DNA from: Phytoseiulus persimilis
Taxonomy: Eukaryota; Arthropoda; Arachnida; Mesostigmata; Phytoseiidae
Assembly (NCBI GenBank): GCA_037576195.1
Contig: CM075102.1
Span: forward strand, 17,852,745 to 17,916,744
Direction: 5' to 3'
DNA length: 64,000 nucleotides
Part shown: piece by piece, positions 8,675 through 64,000 of the stretch
How positions within the stretch are numbered: the first letter of the stretch is position 1
Layout of the letters: every line of letters begins with the position of its first letter
The notes under the pieces: model-generated
What the model saw: the letters and a program-made list of their open reading frames with translations, nothing else
The model's database searches: none
Told to the model about the DNA's origin: nothing
Made by a program: the position numbers and the translations under genes

Positions 8675-9433
8675 TACCTATTTTTCAAGAGCCGAATTCC
8701 TGTACACAAGAGTCTTTTTATTGAATGATATATTGGCCGTTTTGTTCTATGACCTTCGCCCATCGGTCAGGTAAATCGAAGATTCCCTTCTCCCAGAACT
8801 TGGTTTCCTTCTTTCCAAAAAACTGATTGAGGTGATTTTTTATACCCTCCAAAGATTCGAATATTTCTCCATCAAGAGAGTTTTGAAGAGACCGGAACAA
8901 GTGATAGTCTGGCGATCGGTGAGGTCATGAGGCAGCCAGATATTCCTCTTGTTTGAGAAGCCAGCTTGATGGAGGCGATTCCAAACGGTTCCATGAGAAA
9001 CTCCCGTCGAGTCTTCAATTTCTTTGATGGTCAGGCCGGGGTTTGAAGTTACCAGGCTAATGATTTCATCGGGTTCCACAACTTGTGGTCGTCCTGATCT
9101 GGGCTCATCTTCAAGATTAAAGTTTTCAGCCTTGAAACGGGTAAACCACTTTCTAACCGTAGAACTTTGAAGAGCATTCTCCCCGTAAACTGCAGATATT
9201 CTTCGAGTGGTCTTCGCTGCATTCAAGCCTTCGCGGTAGCAGAACAACATTATGTGTCGAAAATGCTGCTTTTGGTCCTCCATCGCAAATTCTTCCTGAT
9301 TTTACGAACTCGACGATAAAGTCTGAAACGATACACCGGTAGGAACTCTAGAGCCCGCCTAAGAACGTAAACGAACAACCACTGTAGTAGGCGGCTCTTG
9401 TGCGGAGCGCGGGAATTTCAAAAATGTCGGATC

Positions 9434-24545: not shown

Positions 24546-26885
24546 ATGCTTTCCTCACATTCAACCCCGCTTTACTTTCTGCTTCTGGCTGTTCTATCGA
24601 AGATGCCGACTGTTCGCTCGCACGGACGACTCATGGAACCTCCATCAAGGTGAGGGTGACCTAGAACGCGAGTTTTCCAATTGTGCACTTGGAATCGAGT
24701 AGAGAACTTGGTGATGGTCTGTGATCTTTCGGTTGGAAAGCCTCCACTGCACGATGTGGATGATCTGCTGTTGTGCATAAATCCCACCACGCTGTGTTTC
24801 GCTCAAGTGAACTTATTTTTAGGTCCTCCATGTGGCGCGTCGGTTTCAAAACTCCGCGGAACTACAACGATAACGAGCTTTTCTGTGGAGGCTTCACGGT
24901 AAATATTCTGTCCTCCGAGAAGACACAAAACATGTACCTAGTAGGTCGGAGTGTGGGCGAAATATTCAGCAAACTTCAAGGAGGAAGTGTGGAGCAGCCG
25001 TTCTGAATGATGGATTCGTTGACCTTCGATCATGAACCCCCTCTTTCCGCAGCGGCAACTCCGTAACGGTATGAAATGTGGAGTTTGCGGTGACCCATGG
25101 GACGTCCCACCTCCACGCGCGAATGAGGCTGGTGGGAAATACGCCACAGGAATGATCGCTCGAAGGTAGCTCGCGGGTTTGCCATTTATCTATGTCGATT
25201 CGGTGTTCCTCCAACAATGGAATAAATTGCACAGCCTCAAGAATTCTTCGATTGCAGATACCGTCCGGGTCAGGTTATCGATACCGCGGTTGAACTCACA
25301 GCGAATCACATGGGACACTTCAGATTCCGACTCTGCCCCGTCAACGATCCCTCGGTCAGTATCTCTCGTTCTCTCTCAACAGAATTCGTCCGCATCTTGC
25401 CCTCCGGGACTGAATTCAGAGCGCCGGACACTTGCTTTAGAGCACTCAGCATTTAGCGGCGGTGACGCATCCTTGAATGTCGAGCCGCATTCGGTCAAAG
25501 TCAAGGGCACGCAGCCGGCTGAATTTCCTGCGATTTCGGGAGGTGGAAGTCTTGACTACCGATGGGACGACTTTTTCAAACACGTTGTCTTGGGCGCTCG
25601 GAGCTCGTTGCCCTCCCAATGAGAAGTTAGTTAGTCGCCGCGAAGGCCACAGCTCCGAGCCTGTATCTTTTCGCGAGGGGCGCCCCGTGCCCTGCATTTC
25701 GTAGGGGGGCCGAGCTGCAGCATTTCCATTGCAAACGGAGTCGGGAGTCCACCCAGGTTCCGTGAAGCATTTGAGACTCATTTCCTCGTTCGGCACGCAT
25801 TACAGGCCAAAGCCACGGATGAATGCATGGCCAAGTATCCTTTGGAAATCATCGAAGCCTCTGCCAACGATCCCTTCCGCTACGTTCTCCCAGATAGAAA
25901 CAACAGATACCGAGTTCGAGTGAAACTGCCGTCCAACCTCACTTGCACGCAATGCGTTTTCCAATGGACCTACACCGCTGGTACGGAAGTTCATAAGTCA
26001 ATCGTGATTCATAAAAGTCGACGAACTCACGTGCGGTCGATAATAGCACACTCGGAATTGCCTTCGATCTCTTCTGGATTCCGTCGTGAAATGTTCTGTG
26101 TGTGTGTTTCAGGAAACAATTGGGGCCGCTGTCCGGACGGCGTGTCCCGAGTGGGATGCGGACCGCAAGAGACGTTCCGAGGATGCTCGGACATCGCGAT
26201 TTCTGATGGAGCCACCGGAACGGGTTCGGTTCCTGTCGGAGTTCCTGCTAGGAAGCCTTGGAAAACAACGGAAGAGCCCTCTACAGAGCCCGGTACAACA
26301 TTCCGACACAAGCCGAAAACCACTCCGAAGTGGCACAAATCCACCCACAAGTGGAACGACAAACCTCAGCACAAGAAACCCCTCCATCCGAAAGGGAAAT
26401 ATCCTTCCTCTCCCAAGTACTGGACCAGATCAACTTGGAGAACGACGTCTAAACCCACTTGGAGCTCGACCCCCGGCCTCGAGAAAGAGGAGGGTCCCCT
26501 CCCCATGACACCGCCAAGAACAAAAATGCACGGCCACTATCCGGAACCCACGACCGCCCGACCAAAGAGACACACAGAGGCCATGACTCCCAGGATGTCC
26601 TTCCCGACCACACCGCGCACGAGATTCACTCCAGTCCTCAAGTCCGTTACCGGTTGGGTCGCAACAACAAGAAAACCGACAGCAACGCCGACCACGACGG
26701 CGAAAGCCGTAAAGACGACCGCTAAGCCCGAAGCTGAAAATGAGATCCCGAGCAAAGCTCCTCCGAAACGCTTTTGCAGTCCGGTCGGTGTTTACGCAGG
26801 CTCCCGCAAAATGCAGCAGTGGTGCGACCTGAACTGCCTTGACGCGCCGTACTACTGTCCACGAACTCACTGCAAGTGTGCATAG
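24546..26885 (+). CDS. Secreted AA15-family lytic polysaccharide monooxygenase with Thr/Pro/Lys-rich linker and C-terminal Cys-rich domain, six coding exons
   Basis: Copper-dependent oxidase of the AA15 family (former chitin-binding type-4 domain), expected to cleave chitin or related glycans outside the cell. Coding exons read from the sequence: 24546-24649, 24823-24898, 25053-25165, 25258-25354, 25806-25980 and 26113-26885 (TAG at 26883), all with GT/AG ends and agreeing phases; 445 aa. Residues 1-25 are a signal peptide. His26 in SHGRLMEPPSR becomes the mature N-terminus and the first histidine-brace ligand; His115 in TANHMGHF is the second; Phe210 in QETFRGCSDIAI probably fills the axial site. 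Family motifs NYNDNELFCGG (48-58) and KCGVCGDPWD (68-77) are present. The catalytic domain ends near residue 220. A linker of about 190 residues rich in Thr, Pro and Lys, probably O-glycosylated, follows, then a final 36-residue Cys-rich block containing QQWCDLNC and ending HCKCA, as in other arthropod AA15 proteins. The start is the only ATG giving a signal peptide before His26. Confidence 0.93.
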
Positions 26886-33220: not shown

Positions 33221-36200
33221 TCAAGTTCTCGGCAAAGATTGGCTCCGTCGACGATTCCTGAGGAAACTCTCGAATAGGCTGTCAGGCAGCTGAGCGTTCA
33301 GGGTTTCGGGCAAGAAAAACACCAAGACCGTTGCTAGAAATGATCCGCTGCCGACGATGACGAAACACCACTTCTGATTGGAAACCGATGCGAGGGCCTG
33401 AAATATCGATGAAATTCTTGGTAAATGAAGTGGATGAGTCCCGAATTCGTCCCTGACGCTCTGGGGATCAATTCAAATTGTTCTGATTTCCCACCAAATC
33501 TCGGATGAATGGTGCGAGCATGCCTCCGATGCGTCCGACCGCGAAAGCCAGAGCGAATCCAAGAGATCTGATATTCGTCGGCAAAAGCTCAAGTGTGTAA
33601 ACCCATTTGATCGAAGTCGCCAGTGTCAAGAAGAAGCGAGTCACCGAGCTCAGGGCCAGCTTCAGGGTGGGTTCTCCTGGAAGTGCGAAGAGGCGACTGC
33701 AGCTAACGACGGGATGATTCTCATTCGCTGTTCACGATCCGTGTCCCAATGTCTCATCCACCGAACAAGAAACTGATCTTACTCAGGGGTATGAATGCGG
33801 TGGCGATTGAACATGCCGAGCCGACGGCGAGAGAGCCAGCCATGGAGGATCGTCGATTCAAAAACCTGAGTAGAAACATTCCAACGAACCCTGCGGGAAT
33901 CTCAGCGGCCGCACCGATGGCGAATGCACTCCTTGGGTCGTATTCTGTCACAGAGATATGGATTGTTTCAGTGAATGAAGGCGAGGTTCCGCCTGTGCTG
34001 TGGGAATATTTCCATACAATCCGAGTGAAGTTCCTCGATCCTGTCTCTCGCGATGGTCCATCCAGATCAGGCCGTTTGTCAGCCTGCGAGCAGTTCAAAA
34101 GCAATTCGAAGCAGTAATCAAATTCACCTGGGATATGAGCGGAGAGGAAGATGTCGGCATAGTAGATTCCGTTCTCAACTAGCCAATAGAGTAGTATAAT
34201 AATCAGCTGACGTCTCAGTCTCGAATCGCCGAGCAGCACCATGATCCCTTGCGATTCCGAACTCTGGAAAATAACTTCGATCAGGCCCCTCATCTTGTAT
34301 AATTTTTCCGGGAATCGTTCCATTCATCCATGGCATGCCGAAAATCCATCGCTCCGACTTCCGCTCGCAATCGGACTGTTGTATTATGAGGCGAAGTTGA
34401 TCCCTCGTTGTCGCGCATCCCGAATGGATTACCCACCTGCGTCCGCTCAACGAGATTGCTCATGACGTAGGTGAAATTCGGTATCGATCTCCGGTTGGTG
34501 GTGAATATCGAATTCAGCACTTCCCTCGCTTCCAGAGTTCGCTTTTGATTCACGAGCCACCTCGGAGACTCTTCGACGATTCTGCGATGGAAATATCTGC
34601 TCAGACAGTCCCGTTGAGCAGTCATGGAGCTAATTTCATTGTTTTGAACGGCTGGACTCGAGCAGTGCTCTCTAATTGCGTGCGTCGAGCAGAGCCGCAA
34701 TCGCATGGAGGGACCGCGTTCAGCGGACGTAATCAACACTGAATCAACATTTGGAAACGTTAGACATTTCTGGAAATGACTCACAACAATGGCGGTAAGA
34801 TGCAGAGCGCGCAAAGGCCACAGACGAGCTGGAAAAGCCTCCACGAATTCAGAGCTTGACTCACGTACGGCACGGCTATGGTGCAAGCCGCAAACGCGAT
34901 TGTGAAGCCAATGTTCATCAGGTACCGATCGCGAGGCAGCAGGAGCTCCATGACTAGAGATGTCGGGAAAGATTCTGTGTTATTCATCAGCAGCCCCCAG
35001 ATCTCAGTGGTGAGACGTTACGGCACGAGGAGCGTTCCTAGTCGGACGTGCCTGGACCAGGCCTCGGAGGTACTCCAGCCCTACTCGGAGAGAATAGAAA
35101 CTATTCGCCGACAGGAGCGTCCGCGGGAAGGGGCGAACCCAAAACGTGCGCTCACACCTCCCCCCCCCCCGAACAGCAAACGGTTGGAGGAGACCGCTCG
35201 GCCATCCGCGCGAAATACAGTTGCGCGGGAAACTCCCGATTCGGAATACAACTCGGAACACTCACAAAGGGCAGCGCTGGTGACCTGGATTCCGGCCACT
35301 GCCGCGGCCTGGACGAATCTCAACAGGTTGAAAGCCCAGAGCGCCGGCACAACTGAAGACCCTATGGAGAAAACTGAGAACAGGACGGTGCTCACGAGTA
35401 GACTCTTACGCCGGCCCTGCCTGAAACGGGAATTCATTCTAAGATGCAGGCTTCGATCAGGGAGGGCAGGAATTCACGTCCAGCACACCAAATCGCTCGA
35501 CCAGGCACAGCGAAGGAGGAGAAACCTCGAGATTCTGGGGAAAAAAGCTTTTTACCAATCTGAGAGTAAACCGAAAACGATGGCGCCCACGAAGCAGCCG
35601 CCGAATACCACGGTTTGCATCGCAGAGCTGATCCACTGCCTCCTGCAGACCAGGTTCCACTGAAATATTTCGAACGAGATGGTTTTTCCAGCCTGACGTA
35701 AGCCCTCGGTTCGTCGGAGGCTTCAATGAATGGAAACTATTGTACATGATCTCACCCGGAAGCACAGAACGTCATAGCAATGCGAGCCCGATAAGACTCC
35801 GTTCAGTATGTCGTTTGACTTTGTCGAGTGTGAGTGAGGCACGAAATTCAAATCACCTATCCGAAATTCGACGCTCGATTCGAGAACTCTGAGTTTAGGT
35901 TGAGGTATAAACCAGAATTTGGACTACTGGGTGGGTCGAAATCGAGAAGTGATGCGAACTCGATGACGCATCGTTGACGCATGTTCTCGTCTCTCAGACT
36001 TTCCCGAGAGTTGCGGAGACGGAGAAGTGAGGAGAAGCAGAAGCAATTCATGCAATCCGTTCTGATCGTCATTCCAGAATTTCTTCAGGTTCACTGAGCC
36101 ACCCGATACAACTTCGGACCGATACTACTGATTCATCCATTCAAGCTCTCATCCCAACCTGGATTTGATTCAGTTTTACTGTTTAGGATTGTTGCGGGTG

Positions 36201-36831
36201 ATCAGTCTAAAATGTCCTTGGAGCGCATCTGTTCGAACCACGGTTTCCAGCTGACGGGGCACGCTGACTAACGGCTTCCGCTCGCCGTCCGGGCCATGCT
36301 CGGATGGCACTCCGGCTGGTTGTTCTGTTTCTCGAGTGATACCGAGGAAGGCTCCCTGTTCTTACCTCGGGCACGACGGACCAACCGATATCGGTCGCAC
36401 CGTAGGTGAAGTTCGTACACTCCACCCAGGCCGAGGTGTTGGTGAAGGATCCATTCGTCGGATGCGTGTAGCACCTCCCGAGTTCCGCGTCGGAAGAGTT
36501 CGGCTGAAAGTTCAAAACCAGATTCCACTTGATATCACTCGATCCCTCGAGAGCTCCCAGGCGGTTCCGTTTCCATGACAAACAGGTTCATGTGCCACCC
36601 TCAAACTGTGAAAATATAGCTGTTGTGCATGATGTGTGGCGAGAACCGAGAACCGTTTTGCCTTACATGATCTGCACTTCCATTCGCACACGACACGTCG
36701 AAGTCTCCCGTGAGGAAGTCGATCCCGGTGAGAGTCCAAGCCGAGGGGAGGGCTCGCAGGATGGTGACCAAGAGCACGATGAAATGGTAAATGCCAAACT
36801 CACCGATCACGTCACTGATGTCGAGGAGCAT
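33221..36831 (-). CDS. SLC22-type organic ion transporter (MFS), ten coding exons
   Basis: Twelve-helix plasma-membrane carrier of the SLC22 (organic cation/anion/carnitine) family; substrate not predictable. Minus-strand coding exons in order: 36667-36831, 36366-36503, 35556-35659, 35266-35420, 34785-34953, 34437-34581, 34128-34263, 33783-33944, 33495-33727 and 33221-33397 (TGA at 33221-33223). All have GT-AG ends and matching phases; 527 aa, normal for the family. Family marks: DISDVIGEFG at the N-terminus; TM1 near 15-33; a large extracellular loop (about 45-100) with glycosylation sequons NSS, NGS, NTS and NFT; WNLVCRRQW at 102-110; GLLSDWQGRRKSLL after TM2; EESPRWLV at 247-254; LELLPTNIRS at 437-446; FLPETL near 500. 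ATG 36831 is the first in-frame ATG after an upstream TAA. Weakest junction: the 55-bp intron 33728-33782, whose acceptor is poor. Intron 33945-34127 is a multiple of three without an in-frame stop. The subgroup cannot be fixed from motifs alone. Confidence 0.92.
35160..35170. repeat. C11 homopolymer in a transporter intron
   Basis: Lies in the intron 34954-35265 of the SLC22-type gene, so it does not affect the protein. Confidence 0.9.
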
Positions 36832-36999: not shown

Positions 37000-39990
37000 A
37001 ATGGCGACGTCGAGTGACAAACGGCATGCCGTCAATGGAAGTGTTTTGAGCCACTGAATGTTCTCCTACCAAAGTGGAGCGAACAAGCATGCCGGGGAGG
37101 GAGCACTTGACGTATTGGTCCAGGGAGCCGCCTAGTTTGACTTGGGATCGGCGACCGATGCGAGACTCCGCGGCGATTCCGTCTGCCCTTGTGGCTCTCG
37201 ATCTGCCAGTCCCGATGCACATAGGAACACCGGCTCTTCAAGAGAAACTTGAGCGTCGGAGACGCAGTATTTGCCCGTGGTCCACGCTTGCTCGCCCGGA
37301 TTTCCGCCGTTATTTCAGGATAACGCTGTTGCTTGTCCAGAACTCCACTGCTCACTCAATGAGTGATTCCAGATCCTTCCACTGTTTACACGAAGCGTAG
37401 CTTATGAGGCACGCCAGGAGACACAGGTTGACACATGACCGCGAGCACTTGCGGCGTTGATTGAATCTAAACTGACTACATCTGTCCCGGATAGTGGGGA
37501 ACGCAGAGCAAACGAGCGCTTGCACGCGCGCACGGATCGACAAACTAGCGGACGGACTGGCCTGTCCGGTGAACGGGTATTCGCAGTGACCAACTGACTG
37601 GCCGAGGGACTGACGGATGGACGAACTCTATCGCGCGCCGCTCAGCGAACTTCTATGGAAACAGTCTTTGAGAAAGGTTTTGATAAACAGAACGGCGCGC
37701 CAGCCTCTCGCCGGTTCGCTGCTCACTCACAATAGATGGACGCTTAACGCAAAGCCCTCACGCTGTACGACGCCGGCCGCTTTCCCGCCAGCTCTCCTGC
37801 CTGCGTGGTCGAGAGCTAGGCGAACTAGACGTCCAGCTTGTCACTTTCCGGAGGGCATTGTTTTTTCTAGCTGAGGGAAACGCACTTCTCGAGCACATTT
37901 ACCCTGCTCATCGAGGAGCAAATGTTTTTTCAACGATTAGCTCTCGGATTCACCCCGTGGAACGTGGCTCAGACTGCCAGAATTCCGTCCATGCTCCTCT
38001 CTCCAGCCGATCCGCCCGGTGTCAGGATGGTCTTCATCGACATTTCTTCATCGCTCTTTGAAACTGATACACTCCAAAAGATCACTCGGAAAAGTATGCA
38101 TCTGCTCTCGTTCCCTTGGCCCCGGAGGGGTGACAGAACTTGTCGGAAACACTCGGGGTCAGATTTTCAATTCTAACGGCAATTCCTCGGCAGCAAGCTA
38201 CATGAGATCAAGTCCCAGAGGTGACGCGGGGAGACCCACTTGTGGCTGCGACGCACGCTTGGAAAGAACGAGAACCATGGTGTCCACCCTCAGAGCTCTT
38301 GATGTGATTCATGCCGAGGGTGACCTATTTTGATAGGGTCAGTTCTACATTCTGTCGAGACCGGGAACAGTCATTTCGAAAGATCCAAAGTGTTCACAAA
38401 AGATGCAATCAGGTCGGCGTTTCTCCGTTGAGATGAAAGCCTATGACGGGAGGAAGGAAAGTAGGACTTTTTCTCAGTTTCGTCAGGTCCTCGAGCGGAG
38501 CCCCGACTCGAGTCGAGATCGTGACCGTCTTGAGCTGCCGCCTAGAGGCACTTTTCCGGCCTTTTCCTGGGAAATGGCAGACGTCCAACGCCCTATGGCC
38601 CGAGTATCTCTAAGTCTCCTGCCCTAGTGCCTGAATATTGTTCTATCGGCCCCGATATTCGTTTCCGAGCCGCGGCGTGAGCCCCGACACTTCTCGATAT
38701 ATTCCTGTTCTTTACTCGAGGTTCATCATCTGAACCGGGGGCACAGATTAAAGTTTTAACAGGGATTCGCGAGCTGGCTCGTTTCCCAAGGTGCACCAGA
38801 AGAAGACGCTGCGAAATCCGTTCGAAACTTTTTAATAAGCGCCCACCTTCGTTCATAAGAATAGATAGCGGCCCTTTCTTCAGCTTATCGGCTGCAAGCT
38901 GAGGAAGTGAGGAGAATAGATCGTTCCCCGCAACAATAACATTCTCCTTCGGTTGAGATGTCGGAATTCCGGCGCCGGATGAATATTATCAATTCATATT
39001 CCATCCGAGAAAACTCTGAGCATTCTTGAATTGAAAGCAGGATTTTATTCACATCTCTCCGACAGAAATGATGACAAAAGAACAATCGGGAGAAATATAC
39101 TCCCCGCCATTCATACTTTGTTACCTAAATAACTTATTAGGGAATGCTTCTGCTACCGTTGATAGTCTTGAACGAGGTTCGCCTAGGGTAGGTTCTGATA
39201 AGTACAACACGATTTTCAGAACTGTCTCAATGGAAAAAACCGACTGATTTGGGAGGAGTCCTCTGAAGATCTCCATGAAACGGGGATGCTATGTGGAGAG
39301 CGCTCCGAGGGATGAGTTTCCGCAGAGTTTGAAGTCCCCAAATTCCGACATAAATCGCGAGGGGAACGCGTCGATATCGGTACCCGTAGGCCGATAAATC
39401 CAACATTTGCAGCAGAACCTTCGAATTCGGAAACAAGGAGCCGGAACCCGCCTGACGGAGACTCAAAGTTTGCACAGGAGGTGAAACGCAGAGCTTCTTT
39501 GAATTTCAAGGAATGAAGGTGTCTAATCGAGAGTTTGGGTACGCTTTTGCAGAGTCCGGTATTCGCCCAGCCCACCAAGGAACTGTGGGAAGTCACGTGT
39601 CTGAAAGCACAGTGATGGTATTCCGAACACTTTGAGAGGTATTCCTGGGAGAGAGAGTAAAACTACATGAAAGATCTCATTCATCATCATCGTTATCTTC
39701 TCAACCATTTTCATCACATTTGGCACACGTGGCACTTTTTACCGGACCAGGTTTCGTATTTACAACTTCCTTTCTCCCAAAGTTTGCAGTCTTTCATCCG
39801 CCTCAAGCGTTCCTTCAAAGAGTAGTCTAAGCTAGACGCTAAGTATGGTACATCATTTACAACGATATCATCTTGCCATAACTTCGTAGGCCATGAAATT
39901 GAAAGTTTTCGCCGCTATCGTATGCGGGAAAATTCCTCGAGGGTGTTGCTGCGTTTCCATAGTGCCAGTGCTACAAGGTTCGAGCGACGG
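37000..39990. other. Stretch between the transporter start and the ephrin end
   Basis: Contains the presumed transporter promoter side (above 36832) and, at its right end, possibly the ephrin 3' UTR. Minus-strand frames at 39216-39735 include a hydrophobic start (EIFHVVLLSLPGIPL) but cannot be joined into a convincing gene. No TATA box stands out upstream of the transporter. Confidence 0.4.
39044..39049 (-). terminator. Possible distal poly(A) signal of the ephrin gene
   Basis: AATAAA on the minus strand, about 1.1 kb beyond the end of the extended ephrin frame. It would suit a long 3' UTR; no direct evidence of use. Confidence 0.25.
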
Positions 39991-40154
39991 CTTCATCCAC
40001 GCTGCGACCGATTTTCTTCCAAAATAGGCCCTCCCATCTCGGGAGATCTTTATCATATGTACAGCAACTGAGCGATCAGTTCGATTGACGCTCGATCAAC
40101 TGACTGATGAGTGAGTGTTCAACAAGGAGTCCTCTCGATGAATCCCATGTCACC

Positions 40155-42683
40155 TCACATATTCGATGGCTGCATGTAAATCTGAGAAGACGTCATCAAC
40201 TTGGGGTTGTGACTCGGCTGGGGCGTATACGTGTTGCGTACAACGCTGGCCGCCTCGAAGGTGTGACCCGGCGTTTTATTGAAGATCACCGTGTGCGCGG
40301 GAGGCATTGGGAGCTGCGTCCACGCGGAGACTCCCATCGGACCCAGGGTTCCGGGTCGCCCCGTGCGAAGCTGCCGCCTGTCTCGGCGGCGGAGTAAACA
40401 TCATCTGATCACAAAAACTGCCAATAAGACCGTTGCGATACCCACGGCGATCAGCAGCCAAAGACCGTAGCCGCAGTGGAGACATGATGACGCTGAATCT
40501 GAGAACGCGACTTCCTCTTGATCCTCAGGCCGCACCACGGGGTCTGGGGGAAGGAGACGGAATTCAGGGTTAGAACGCGCACGAGGGAGCGAATGCAGAC
40601 GAAAATGAAAAGAAGCTTCATTAACTCGGGAAGCCTCGCAAGATTAATCGTTGCCCAGCCGACGCAGGAAAAAATCTTTCCGCTCATCAGGGAGAAAATC
40701 TCTTTCCGCTCATCAGGGAGAAAATCTCTTTCTCTCGAGAGAGAAGTAACTAGTCGACTCAAAATAAGCCCCGAGACAGAACTGTTCCCCCAGAGTAATT
40801 TGTGAGGAGCTCAGTCCACGCAAAAGCTTTAAGAGGAACCTGAAATCGTAGCCGTGCTGAGGGAAGCCCAACATCGACCGGGACTGGTCGTTGCTGCGTT
40901 CATTGCTGGTCGGCAGCCGAAGATCAGCGCAACGAGTACGACCGCGATTTCGAGAATGGAATTCGACGACTCCTCAGGAACTTACAGATTTTGTTGAAGC
41001 CACCAGGAAACTTTTCCGTTTCTTCTGTGGTGAAAATCCGAGATTCTGGCAGCTTTGCCCGTATGCTAGGTCGGAGTGTTCTGAACACCGGATTGTACGA
41101 CACCGTGGTCGACTCCGGCACCTCAGATGACGCGGTTGCTTTGACAGGTTGGCTTTTGCTGACTCGCTCATCTGAAATTGGAAGCAATAATAAAATAACA
41201 AGTCACCATAACGTCTTGCGGTGGGAACTGTCGTGGCCCCTTCGATCGACTGTAAGCCTCCGACATCGATCAAAGCTAATAATCTGTTACATCGGACGCC
41301 CGATCCAGAATCGAGCTTCGATACCGGACTACAAAAAAACGGAAGCAGTAGGGGAAGGTTGGAAGCTCAATGGACATATCCGATCGCTTATTCGCGCGCG
41401 AAGCTCCTGATTCAGTTCAACACCCGAATCCGTCAGGTGCGACCAGACACTTAGTGAGCCGGGTATCTGTCAGTTTTCTTCTTTCTTTTGTGAAAAGTGG
41501 TCCGGTCTTTTATTCTCGCTCCCCGCTCTGAGAGAAAAGCTGTCAATTAGGTACTCCTATTCGGAGACACGTAGCAGCAAGGTAGGAGGTGGAGAGAAGG
41601 AATTCTCGAGGGATTTCCCTTACTGACGTGGTGCTAACGTCTCCGTCCGAGTCATCCCTCACCGAACTAACGTCACTGTCGACATATCGCTTCCGAAAGG
41701 TCTGCCTGCATTATGTTCTCCGCTCATGAGTAAGATTTTTAGACACGCTCGAGACGACGGAGGAATGCGATGACACCGGATCGGTTTCATCGCTGTACAC
41801 ACAGAGCGAGCAGTGGTGCGCCTGACGCAGGCTCAGACTTTCCCCCATCGCTCATCAAGCTTAACCTGGGCACTAAATAAGGCCAATCGTGGATGAGAGC
41901 ATTCGGGGATATCGAATAGAGACATCAAAAAGCTAATGTGATGATCGTTGACGGCACCTACCGAAATCTCTGCAGCACACTTTGAAAGTAACTTTCATAT
42001 TGTGCTGCCGGCAAGCGCCTCCGTGATCCTGATGAAGACCGCCAGGAGTTCCGCTCGACGTTGATATGAGGTAATAATCCTCACCGGGTTTGAATTCTTT
42101 GCCTCCAGGCTGCGGTGTGAAAGACCTATACACAGAGAATTTTTAGATGCGCGTCGAATTTTCAGTGGTAAAGGACGGGCCCGATAATTTGACCACAAGT
42201 CAACGTTTCGCAATTACTTGATATTTTGAGAATCGATACTTCATAGTTTTTCACAAATCGTGTCTTCCGTGGAAATCAAAGCCGCAAATGAGTCGAATGA
42301 GCTCACCTGAAGGTTATCGTGTACTTGAGGGCTCGGCCCGCGTTCCCATCGCATTTGGCGACAAGATTCGGGTTGTCCTTCCGTGAAAGAGTACAAGTAT
42401 CGTACTCTTGTCGAGACACCAGATATATTAGATATGTTTCCATTTCTGAAGGTGGAGTTCCAACTCGATAATGCGGACATATTAAATCAAGCTGTAAGAG
42501 GGAATCGTGCGATGCCGTGAGCTCGTTCAGGATCACAGTGAGATGTGAGATCTCCAACCTGGAGGAGATCGTCAGTATCCAAAACGACAAGAAAGACACT
42601 TGGGAACACTCACCTGGTCAAATTCGAAGTTTTGATTGCCACGGTTGACATCTATTATGTGGTCCGTGTTATCGATGCGGAAC
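40155..42683 (-). CDS. Ephrin, last five exons; 5' exon not found; in-frame TGA followed by an 81-codon open tail
   Basis: Membrane-attached ligand of Eph receptor kinases, used in cell-contact guidance. Minus-strand exons: 42614-42683, 42307-42491, 41962-42125, 40986-41171 and 40543 downward, all with GT-AG ends and agreeing phases. The ephrin domain is clear: FRIDNTDHIIDVN, FEFDQ, LDLICPHY, SRQEYDTC, LVAKCDG, KYTITF, FTPQPGGKEFKPGEDYYLIS and GGACRQHNMKVTFKVC. The four conserved cysteines (ICP, DTC, AKC, GAC) are present. A stalk of about 90 residues rich in Ser, Thr, Pro and Glu follows, then a hydrophobic segment GLWLLIAVGIATVLLAVFVI. TGA at 40401-40403 follows at once, giving 248 residues from the first exon seen. 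The same frame stays open to a TGA at 40155-40157: a basic run (CLLRRRDRRQ), then a tail ending QIYMQPSNM. The first exon seen starts in phase 2, so the signal peptide and first ephrin strand lie upstream; no matching exon end was found from 42.7 to 62 kb. Confidence 0.93.
40275..40280 (-). terminator. AATAAA inside the open tail after the ephrin TGA
   Basis: On the minus strand AATAAA lies about 120 bases after the first ephrin TGA and inside the 81-codon extension, where it reads as Asn-Lys. If used, it would give a short transcript without the extension. If the extension is translated, it is a chance match or an alternative poly(A) site. The next AATAAA found is at 39044-39049. Confidence 0.3.
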
Positions 42684-56200: not shown

Positions 56201-57649
56201 AAAAGAGTTCTGTTTGAGGAGTCGAGCCATGCATAGAATTGCTTCCCGAATAACTTCTCAGAGTCATCGTATCAGCTGCGGATGAGGAACTCATAACTAC
56301 ATTCGATGCCGCCGCGTAAGCGATCCGTCTTTGTAGCCATCTGGCTGCTTACCTGCAAGGAAGGAGGAACGTTGGTTAGCCTGAGTCGGCACCTGCGTCT
56401 GCCTAACTGTTCGACTGACTATGCACCTACTCTCGGCGCATGTTGCCAACCAAAGTGAGTTAAAGAAGAACGCTCAGTGCCCCAGCAACTCCCTGCGCAT
56501 TTCGGCGATGCTTCTATCCTCGATGATACATAAATCAGCTGTTGGTTCGAGAATGTTGCACGATGTTTGCCCGATAAGGGATCGGAGATTCGCGAGGGTC
56601 AGGATGCTCTCGCTCTATGTCGACGCCGGACGACCACTTCCGGCGAGTCATGCACCACCTTGCAAGTCAATTTGTGAGTCCTTCGGAAGCGGGCCATAAG
56701 TAGGCGGCTCTTTCAACGGCCTTTCAGCTGCTCGGTCGTCAGGGGCACCGCCACCAACACTTCTTCCCCTCCTCGCCCTGATTTTCGATCTGCGACCTCT
56801 ACCCCTCGTCTCGTTCATTCTCCTATCGCTGCTGTAACTCTTGCCTCCTCCATCGAGACACAGCCGCTCGGCCTTTTTATCACAAGTGACCTTGGTGGTC
56901 GATACGCCCTTCATACGACCTCTATTCCGTTCTATTGTGATGACCTCTATGGCCATATGGCACCACAAATCGCCCTCGTTGTGCGTTCCCCGCGGGGCTG
57001 GAGGACCGCGCACGCTCTTCCAAACGAGTCGCTCACGACTTGCACCGACTCCCAAAACTGTCCCGCATGTGTTGCTTGATACTTCGGATAGATGTCCTGG
57101 CCGACCGGACGGACCGACGGACGCACGACCATGATCTTCCTCAGACTCAGCGTGTCATCCACGAATTTCGCTGTTCTTCTGTTGCCACGTGACGTGTTCA
57201 TCAATTTCAGGGATGGTTACTGCTACGCTTCTCTATCATTCCATAAACTGCGCTGCTATGAAAACCGTGAAATTTCTCCTCGACTCCTCCCGATCAGCTG
57301 TGCGGTCGATTTGGTTCGGAAGCGAGAGGACGTCCCATCAAAGTCAGTTTGTAACACGTATCGACGAAAAGTAACCGCGTGGCGCCCACCGGCGTCGCGT
57401 CGCATTGTTCGGAGCAGAGTCGATCTTCAATTTAACTGGCTGTTCCTTCTCCGTCCGGTCCACTTGGTCCACGTGATTTCACCCCGATTATCATCAGTGT
57501 TTCTCCGACGCGGATGGGACGGACACGCGGCTTCACCGCAGATGCACACAAGAATGAGCGAGCATATCGGTCTGCGATATTTGTTCTCCCACGAATTCTC
57601 TCCCGCGGTCGTTCTACTGGCCACCACCTAGGATCTCATCCTTATTTTC

Positions 57650-62117: not shown

Positions 62118-64000
62118 TCTACTGCTGACAGACTTGGAGAAGTATGTTCAGACTGGTCCCGGTATCACTCCTCCAAACTCGGAAAGTAATGGTCAGATTG
62201 GAGACGGAATCACCCCTCCAGGTTTTGGAAAGTACGGTCAGATTCGTCTAGGAAGCACCCCTCCGGACTAAGAAAAGTATTGTCAGATTGGTCCTGGAAT
62301 CACCCCCCCAGAGTAGGAGAGTAATGGCCAGACCGGTCTCGTAATCACCCCTCCAGAGTTGGAAGCTAATGGCCAGATTGGTCTCGGAATCACCCCTCCA
62401 GAGTTGGAAACTAATGGCCAGATTGGTCTCGGAATCACCCCTCCAGAGTTGGAAAGTAATGGCCAGATTGGTCTCGGAATCACACCTCCAGAGTTGGAAA
62501 CTAATGGCCAGATTGGTCTCGGAATCACCCCTCCAGAGCTGGAAACTAATGGCCAGATTGGTCTCGGAATCACCCCTCCAGAGTTGGAAAGTAATGGCCA
62601 GATTGGTCTCGGAATCACCCCTCCAGAGTTGGGAAGTAATGGCCAGATTGGTACCGGAGTCACCCCTCCAGAGTTGGAAACTAATGGCGAGATTGATACC
62701 GGAATCACCCCTCCAGAGTTGGAAACTAATGGCCAGATTGGCACCGGAATCACCCCTCCAGAGTTGGAAACTAATGGCCAGATTGGTCTCGGAATCACCC
62801 CTCCAGAGTTGGAAAGTAATGGCCAGATTGGCACCGGAATCACCCCTCCAGAGTTGGAAACTAATGGCCAGATTGGTCTCGGAATCACCCCTCCAGAGTT
62901 GGAAAGTAATGGCCAGATTGGCACCGGAATCACCCCTCCAGAGTTGGAAACTAATGGCCAGATTGGCACCGGAATCACCCCTCCAGAGTTGGAAACCAAT
63001 GGCCAGATTGGTCTCGGAATCACCCCTCCAGAGTTGGAAAGTGATGGCCAGATTGGTCTCAGAATCACCCCTCCAGAGTTGGAAAGTCATGGCCAGATTG
63101 GTTCCGGAATCACCCCTCCAGAGTTGGAAAGTAATTGCCAGATAGGTTCCGGAATCACCCCTCCAGAGTTGGAAAGTAATGGCCAGATTGGTCTCGGAAT
63201 CATCCCTCGAGAGTTGGGAAGTAATGGCCAGATTGGTCTCGGAATCACCCCTCCAGAGTCGGAAAGTAATGGCCAGATTGGCACCGGAATCACCCCTCCA
63301 GAGTTGAAAACTAATGGCAAGATTGGTCTCGGAATCACCCCTCCAGAGTTCGAAAGTAATGGCCAGATTGGTCTCAGAATCCCCCCTCCAGAGTTGGAAA
63401 GTAATGGCCAGATAGGTACCGGAATCACCCCTCCAGAGTTGGAAACTAATGTCCAGATTGGTCTCGCAATCACCCCTCCAGAGTTAGAAACTAAAGGCCA
63501 GATTGGTCTCGTAATCACCCCTCCAGAGTTGGAAACTAATGGCCAGATTGGTCTCGGAATCACCCCTCCAGAGTTGGGAAGTAATGGCCTTATTGGTCTC
63601 GGAATCACCCCTCCAAAGTTGGAAAGTTATGGCCGGATTGGTCCCGGAATCACCCCTCCAGAGTTGGAAAGCAATGGCCGGATTGGTCTCGGAATCATCC
63701 CTCCAGAGTTGGAAAGTAATGGCCAGATTGGTCTCGGAATCACCCCTCTAAAGTTGGAAAGTAATGGCCAGATTGGTCTTGGAATCACCCCTCCAGAGTT
63801 GGAAAGTAATGGCCAGATTGGTCTCGCGATCCCCCCCCCCCCCCAGAGTTGGAAAGTAATGCTCAGATTGCTCCCGGAATCACCCCTCCAGGTTTGGGAA
63901 GTAATGCTCAGATTGCTCCCGGAATCATCCCTCCAGAGCTGGAAAGTAATGGCCACATTGGTCTCGGAATCACCCCTCCAGAGTTGGGAAGTAATGGCCA
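62118..64000. repeat. 45-bp tandem repeat array (minisatellite), about 42 copies, running off the window end
   Basis: The unit begins ggccagattggtctcggaat and ends gagttggaaagtaat. Copies before about 62330 are more diverged, as expected at an array edge. The interior is nearly uniform, with variants at bases 11-15 (gtctc, gcacc, gtacc, gttcc) and near base 40 (aaact, aaagt). From about 62770 to 62950, gtctc/aaagt and gcacc/aaact units alternate, giving a 90-bp higher-order unit. Because 45 is a multiple of three, two frames per strand stay open for long stretches (for example 62248-63090 minus and 62369-63145 plus); these are by-products of the repeat. A C14 run at 63831-63844 has enlarged one unit to 50 bp. 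Confidence 0.97.

Follow-up and report, generated by a model that had tools for sequence, protein, structure and literature searches.

Introduction

Ephrins divide into GPI-linked and transmembrane kinds, and the gene described here raises the question of which kind it encodes. An in-frame TGA lies between its membrane anchor and an open frame that could be a cytoplasmic tail. A stop codon in that position would illustrate either how anchorage switches, the tail being lost by one codon, or how a single gene can give rise to both kinds. In an arachnid, should the organism be one, the locus would also test whether functional readthrough reaches beyond Pancrustacea. In this study, we have examined the gene, the frame that follows its first stop and the RNA around that stop within a stretch of 64,000 nucleotides (the window).

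Results

The ephrin gene and its neighbours

Five exons of an ephrin gene were traced on the minus strand, from 42683-42614 through 42491-42307, 42125-41962 and 41171-40986 to a last exon that starts at 40543:

42614..42683, minus strand: ephrin exon A, FRIDNTDHIIDVNRGNQNFEFDQ; donor GTGAGT, phase 0 at its end; read by eye, with the peptide located
42307..42491, minus strand: ephrin exon B, LDLICPHY...KYTITFR; acceptor TTACAG, donor GTGAGC; Pfam PF00812, E 2.8e-10
41962..42125, minus strand: ephrin exon C, SFTPQPGGKEFKPGEDYYLISTSSGTPGGLHQDHGGACRQHNMKVTFKVCCRDF; donor GTAGGT; Pfam PF00812, E 2.5e-13
40986..41171, minus strand: linker exon D, DERVSKSQ...GGFNKI; acceptor TTTCAG, donor GTAAGT, phase 1; an open frame read by eye
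40404..40543, minus strand: membrane-anchor exon, with a linker, the hydrophobic segment YGLWLLIAVGIATVLLAVFVI and one Arg; acceptor CCCCCAG

Judged by eye, the phases are consistent across all five exons, and those of linker exon D fit both of its neighbours. The Pfam matches on exons B and C identify the receptor-binding domain (Ephrin, PF00812). When the two exons were joined and compared with solved structures, 24 distinct ephrin sequences were matched, the best being ephrin-B2 (E 2.3e-20), with ephrin-A1 at 8.6e-13. By sequence similarity, the receptor-binding domain is thus nearest to ephrin-B. The Pfam matches, the exon phases and the matched structures together bear out the claim of an earlier note on this DNA that the exon before the TGA belongs to an ephrin gene. 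Upstream of exon A, a scan for a Met followed by a hydrophobic stretch and a donor gave no candidate for a signal-peptide exon, and a pattern modelled on other ephrins found only chance-looking places for one.

Relatives were sought in three collections in which a lack of matches is no evidence of absence. Scanning viral contigs, a non-animal collection, with the tail returned 26 stretches that matched a pattern, none of them confirmed; the same was true of 38 matches to exons B and C in bacterial and archaeal genome contigs. A distant DNA search of plasmids, also non-animal, with 40158-42682 gave no match.

Several other features of the window were recorded. Beyond the 3' end of the ephrin gene, and on the same strand, lie the exons of a transporter of the Sugar_tr superfamily (33495-36831; Pfam E 2.3e-5 for the whole frame, most exons being read by eye), which presumably resembles the organic cation transporters. 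A lytic polysaccharide mono-oxygenase gene occupies 25800-26882 on the plus strand (Pfam LPMO_10, E 5.6e-6); its product is rich in Pro and Thr over a long stretch and in Cys at the C-terminus. The HTH_48 domain of Mos1-type transposases (E 3.8e-18) is encoded in a 153-codon open frame at 8843-9301, minus strand. Finally, from 62129 to the end of the window at 64000, a 45-base unit is repeated in tandem (41.5 copies, 88% matches); a plus-strand frame of 561 codons is open within this array, and a match there to DNA_ligase_OB_2, weak and below the cut-off, was taken as chance.

An in-frame TGA and the frame behind it

The features around the end of the gene are the following:

40401..40403, minus strand: in-frame TGA; the next base is T, and the codon sits in a GATGATG period-3 run
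40158..40400, minus strand: frame of 81 codons, candidate cytoplasmic tail, in phase with the anchor exon; CLLRRRDRRQ...QIYMQPSNM
40155..40157, minus strand: second TGA, end of the candidate tail; coding score negative beyond it
40373..40390, minus strand: predicted RNA hairpin GCCGCC-GAGACA-GGCGGC, six GC pairs, starting 10 bases past the first TGA
40275..40280, minus strand: AATAAA inside the tail frame (codons AAT AAA), 120 bases past the first TGA
39044..39049, minus strand: AATAAA in a T-richer context, the better candidate for the transcript 3' end

The membrane-anchor exon translates as (Y)PVVRPEDQEEVAFSDSASSCLHCGYGLWLLIAVGIATVLLAVFVIR, followed by TGA. We thereby recovered the order that the earlier note had described, from a hydrophobic segment through VFVIR to a TGA, 81 codons and another TGA, with 40155-40403 on the minus strand spanning both stops and the tail. 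The hydrophobic segment is pronounced, its 19-residue mean Kyte-Doolittle value peaking at 2.92. Length by itself does not set the frame beyond chance: 326 of the 4103 stop-to-stop frames in the window have at least 81 codons, in a count that takes in known exons and the 81-codon frame itself. The combination of features is rarer. When all six frames of the window were scanned for a hydrophobic stretch that ends at a stop (19-residue mean Kyte-Doolittle of at least 2 within the last 24 residues) and has at least 60 open codons behind it, 2 places came out, this one among them; the other, at 56835 on the plus strand, has a hydropathy of 2.05 and 2 Lys/Arg in the next 10 codons.

A single-pass helix usually has a basic run on its inner side. 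Here 5 of the first 10 tail residues are Arg; of the 558 window frames with 60 codons or more, 10 have five or more Lys/Arg among their ten opening codons (tail included, known exons not excluded). The basic run is followed by Pro/Thr-rich text, the tail as a whole containing 10 Pro and 9 Thr. Its two Tyr are residues 58 and 75, and its net charge is +8. By its content, that is by the basic run together with the phase score described below, the frame is probably beyond chance.

Coding statistics of the tail frame

In the tail frame, GC at codon positions 1, 2 and 3 is 0.54, 0.54 and 0.73. The permutation value of this GC3 is 0.0036 for this phase and 0.012 for any phase, a GC3 this high is absent from all 95 open control windows matched for GC, and GC content drops where the frame ends. 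The ephrin's own exons have a GC3 of 0.51 (0.41 to 0.61), well under the 0.73 of the tail. Coding scores were trained on 966 codons with a GC3 of 0.62, taken from three genes of the window (the ephrin, the transporter and the polysaccharide mono-oxygenase).

The clearest signal came from a phase-specific dinucleotide score. The tail scores 4.4, the controls average -6.3 (sd 4.0), and none of 304 open control windows reaches the tail. The control windows of this and the other coding tests may contain unknown exons, since the Pfam gene search covered parts of the window only. The other two frames of the same strand score -15.0 and -8.6, and in 135-base windows that start past 40155 the same frame is negative. 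With one training gene left out in turn, 0, 6 and 6 of the 304 controls reach the tail; by comparison, 11 chunks of true exons, scored with their own gene left out of training, are matched by 0 to 80 of the 304. By this score the tail does at least as well as genuine exons. The earlier note's idea of a tail-like frame past the TGA is supported to the extent that the frame has a coding-like signal, which dies away once the second TGA is passed. When the training exons were bootstrapped, a median of 0.7% of the controls scored as high as the tail or higher, with 8.3% at the 95th percentile.

The signal is spread unevenly along the frame. Codons 15-81 are matched by 0 of 471 controls and codons 41-81 by 15 of 1339, while codons 1-40 alone are unremarkable (233 of 1405). 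It was also observed that the first 14 codons (40359-40400, minus strand) depress the coding score, which is 4.4 for the full tail and 8.3 for codons 15-81, and that the predicted hairpin falls within these codons. Either a constraint on the RNA or a non-coding start of the tail could explain their low score.

Other measures separate the tail less well. A single-base phase score is reached by 11 of 304 controls, and by 4, 58 or 16 of them when the ephrin, the transporter or the mono-oxygenase, respectively, is left out. The whole-codon model depends on its training, with 3, 5, 69 and 82 of 327 controls as high for four training sets; if only the choice among synonymous codons is scored, the counts are 37, 17, 73 and 114 of 327. 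One antisense frame of the tail block, which contains 4 stops, beats the tail in three of the four training sets (3.8 against 2.9, 3.1 against -11.7, 4.0 against -8.0), and in the fourth it scores 4.1 against 6.8 for the tail. A programmed readthrough gene would show a coding signature throughout its second frame but not beyond it. For the tail this signature stands at 0 of 304 controls by phase-dinucleotide score and at 69 and 82 of 327 by whole codons in two of the four training sets. Taken together, the trained scores are moderate evidence for coding and not proof of it.

Polyadenylation signals

The AATAAA that the earlier note had placed within the frame is present at 40280-40275 on the minus strand, in poor context. 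The surrounding GC is 0.62, and T makes up 0.15 of the next 40 bases, a value that 4 of the 17 minus-strand AATAAA of the window equal or fall below. At 39049 the corresponding figures are a GC of 0.38, a T fraction of 0.35 and 16 of 17 at or below. Because the context at 40280 is GC-rich and T-poor, early polyadenylation is a weak argument for an untranslated region.

Stop-codon context and RNA fold

The earlier note had also taken readthrough to be common in arthropods, which is too wide a statement: in the consulted part of PMC5100048 it is abundant in insects and one crustacean only, it is not abundant in a centipede, and it is considerably rarer in the one arachnid tested. The same part of that study reports that insect readthrough candidates prefer TGA with C as the next base, and in the portion consulted of a ribosome-profiling study UGA accounts for only 25% of readthrough events (PMC3840789). 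In the present gene a T follows the TGA, so that the favoured, but not required, TGA-C context is absent. A literature search on ephrins and stop codon readthrough gave no title or abstract opening that deals with readthrough of an ephrin.

The predicted hairpin at 40373..40390 belongs to a small class, as a GC-rich arm of at least six that starts 5 to 14 bases on is found at 7 of the 4095 stop triplets of the window, this TGA included. We compared the predicted fold past the stop with codon permutations that keep the same peptide, with a GC-rich codon null and with a null of window codon usage. At 60 bases, 20, 57 and 12 of 1500, respectively, were at least as stable; the same three nulls gave 44, 157 and 19 of 1500 at 101 bases, and 57, 108 and 32 at 51 bases. 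Between 43 and 95 of 1500 permutations form a hairpin arm of at least six. Among GC-matched windows 10% are as stable at 60 bases (67 windows) and 11% at 100 bases (44 windows), and dinucleotide shuffles of four stretches are as stable in 19, 19, 31 and 55 of 200 cases (z -0.57 to -1.44). One published criterion, as worded in the consulted part of PMC13170385, asks for one stem-loop of at least 35 bases with a loop of 3-10 and at most 2 bulges in the first 60 or 80 bases. Judged by eye, no such stem-loop forms here: the first 60 bases fold into three short hairpins and the first 80 into a branched structure. RNA structure was considered as proof of readthrough and set aside as not decisive, being only mildly unusual for the composition; it was kept as weak support. 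The predicted fold is compatible with readthrough, no more.

Discussion

A candidate tail behind the stop

Our results make it somewhat probable, in our judgement, that the frame behind the TGA is a present or recent coding frame. Based on the gene structure, the frame and its coding-like statistics, we infer that the 81 codons would be the current or recent cytoplasmic tail of a single-pass membrane ephrin with a B-like domain, laid out as a hydrophobic helix, a basic stop-transfer run and a short tail containing Pro, Thr and Tyr. In the mechanism that we propose, most ribosomes would stop at the TGA and yield a tail-less ephrin whose end may suit a GPI anchor, while a minority would read through it and yield a form with the cytoplasmic tail; the GC-rich folded RNA just past the stop could help this readthrough. 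Within the coding-tail reading we consider readthrough the likeliest mechanism, and hold it only tentatively. Against it speak the T after the TGA, the lack of reports of abundant readthrough outside Pancrustacea and the small z-scores of the fold in shuffles. It is a little more doubtful still that one ephrin gene uses readthrough to select either a ligand that lacks the tail and may be GPI-anchored or a transmembrane form whose Tyr-bearing tail can send signals back into the cell that carries it, possibly outside insects and crustaceans.

Other explanations of the TGA

GPI signals follow a pattern of small residues, a spacer and a hydrophobic C-terminus. At the first TGA the small residues SDSASS and a spacer precede the hydrophobic segment, which ends at the stop, and by analogy the TGA-terminated product alone would suit a GPI signal. 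For this reason, and because a moth ephrin, that of Manduca, is described as GPI-linked (PMC2990333, consulted in part), an ordinary terminator is a serious rival. The TGA would then end a GPI-anchored or tail-less ephrin, and the sequence from 40400 onward would be 3' UTR in which a frame is open by chance. For invertebrates, ephrins that combine a B-like domain with a GPI anchor have been predicted, and the GPI anchors of ephrins are argued to have arisen or been lost at least three times (PMC2405795, in the part consulted). The commonness of frames as long, the AATAAA 120 bases past the stop and those coding tests that fail to distinguish the tail point the same way. Against this stand the phase-dinucleotide score, which no control reaches and which falls at the second TGA, the scarcity of frames that open with such a basic run, and the poor context of that AATAAA. 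We give the ordinary terminator a substantial chance, short of an even one.

The remaining explanations are sub-cases of a coding tail, so that their likelihoods are contained in that of the coding frame and do not add to it. The gene may normally encode a product with the tail, the TGA being a nonsense change, a polymorphism or a sequence error; as it lies within a short period-3 run, the TGA could have arisen by a base change or by slippage of the repeat. The coding-like tail and a stop context that is not leaky agree with this, as does the argument, in the consulted part of PMC2405795, that the ancestral ephrin had a B-like domain and a transmembrane anchor, the Drosophila ephrin being predicted to be transmembrane. 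A random change would, on the other hand, fall anywhere in the gene, and this TGA stands immediately after the helix, at the point where cutting the protein short would do least harm; the objection is one of argument, and we regard such a change as rather unlikely but well worth keeping in view. Alternative splicing could join the tail to the gene and skip the TGA, and 61 frame-keeping pairs of a GT in the anchor exon and an AG in the tail, at least 40 bases apart, are available for it. These are weak candidates beside the gene's own four donors (GTGAGT, GTGAGC, GTAGGT and GTAAGT): the 12 donors inside the anchor exon score 1 to 6 where a full MAG|GTRAGT scores 12, and the acceptors have 6 to 11 pyrimidines in 16. 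We therefore think a splice bypass highly improbable. More improbable again is that the TGA encodes selenocysteine, as a UGA followed by an in-frame coding-like stretch would allow, since no SECIS element was among the matches in 37500-41000 at E up to 10, and no Rfam family matched in the window at gathering scores. We know of no ephrin selenoprotein. Even jointly, splicing and selenocysteine are in our judgement very unlikely.

Comparison with known systems

If the coding-tail reading with readthrough is set beside known systems, one likeness is to vertebrate ephrin-B1 to B3, with which the gene shares a receptor-binding domain closest to ephrin-B2 and, in frame, a helix, a basic run and a Tyr-bearing stretch; it differs in the TGA between helix and tail. 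By eye, the tail itself presumably resembles neither that of vertebrate ephrin-B nor the PDZ motif at the C-terminus of the latter. With the GPI-linked invertebrate ephrins (Manduca MsEphrin and, by prediction, those of nematodes) the gene has in common a stop after a C-terminal hydrophobic segment; in contrast to them, an open, coding-like frame with a basic run follows the stop here.

Among genes with RNA structure near the stop, Drosophila dfr/vvl offers a comparison (PMC13170385, in the part consulted): its structure lies at about +9 to +59, and that of the ephrin begins 10 bases on. The ephrin has an 18-base hairpin plus others instead of one stem-loop of at least 35 bases, and its stop is UGA, that of dfr/vvl being UAG. 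The insect readthrough genes of Drosophila and Anopheles, as described in the consulted part of PMC5100048, differ from the ephrin in having C and not T after the stop, and the organism studied here may lie outside Pancrustacea. They resemble it in the TGA, in a long coding-like second frame and in stable RNA 3' of the stop.
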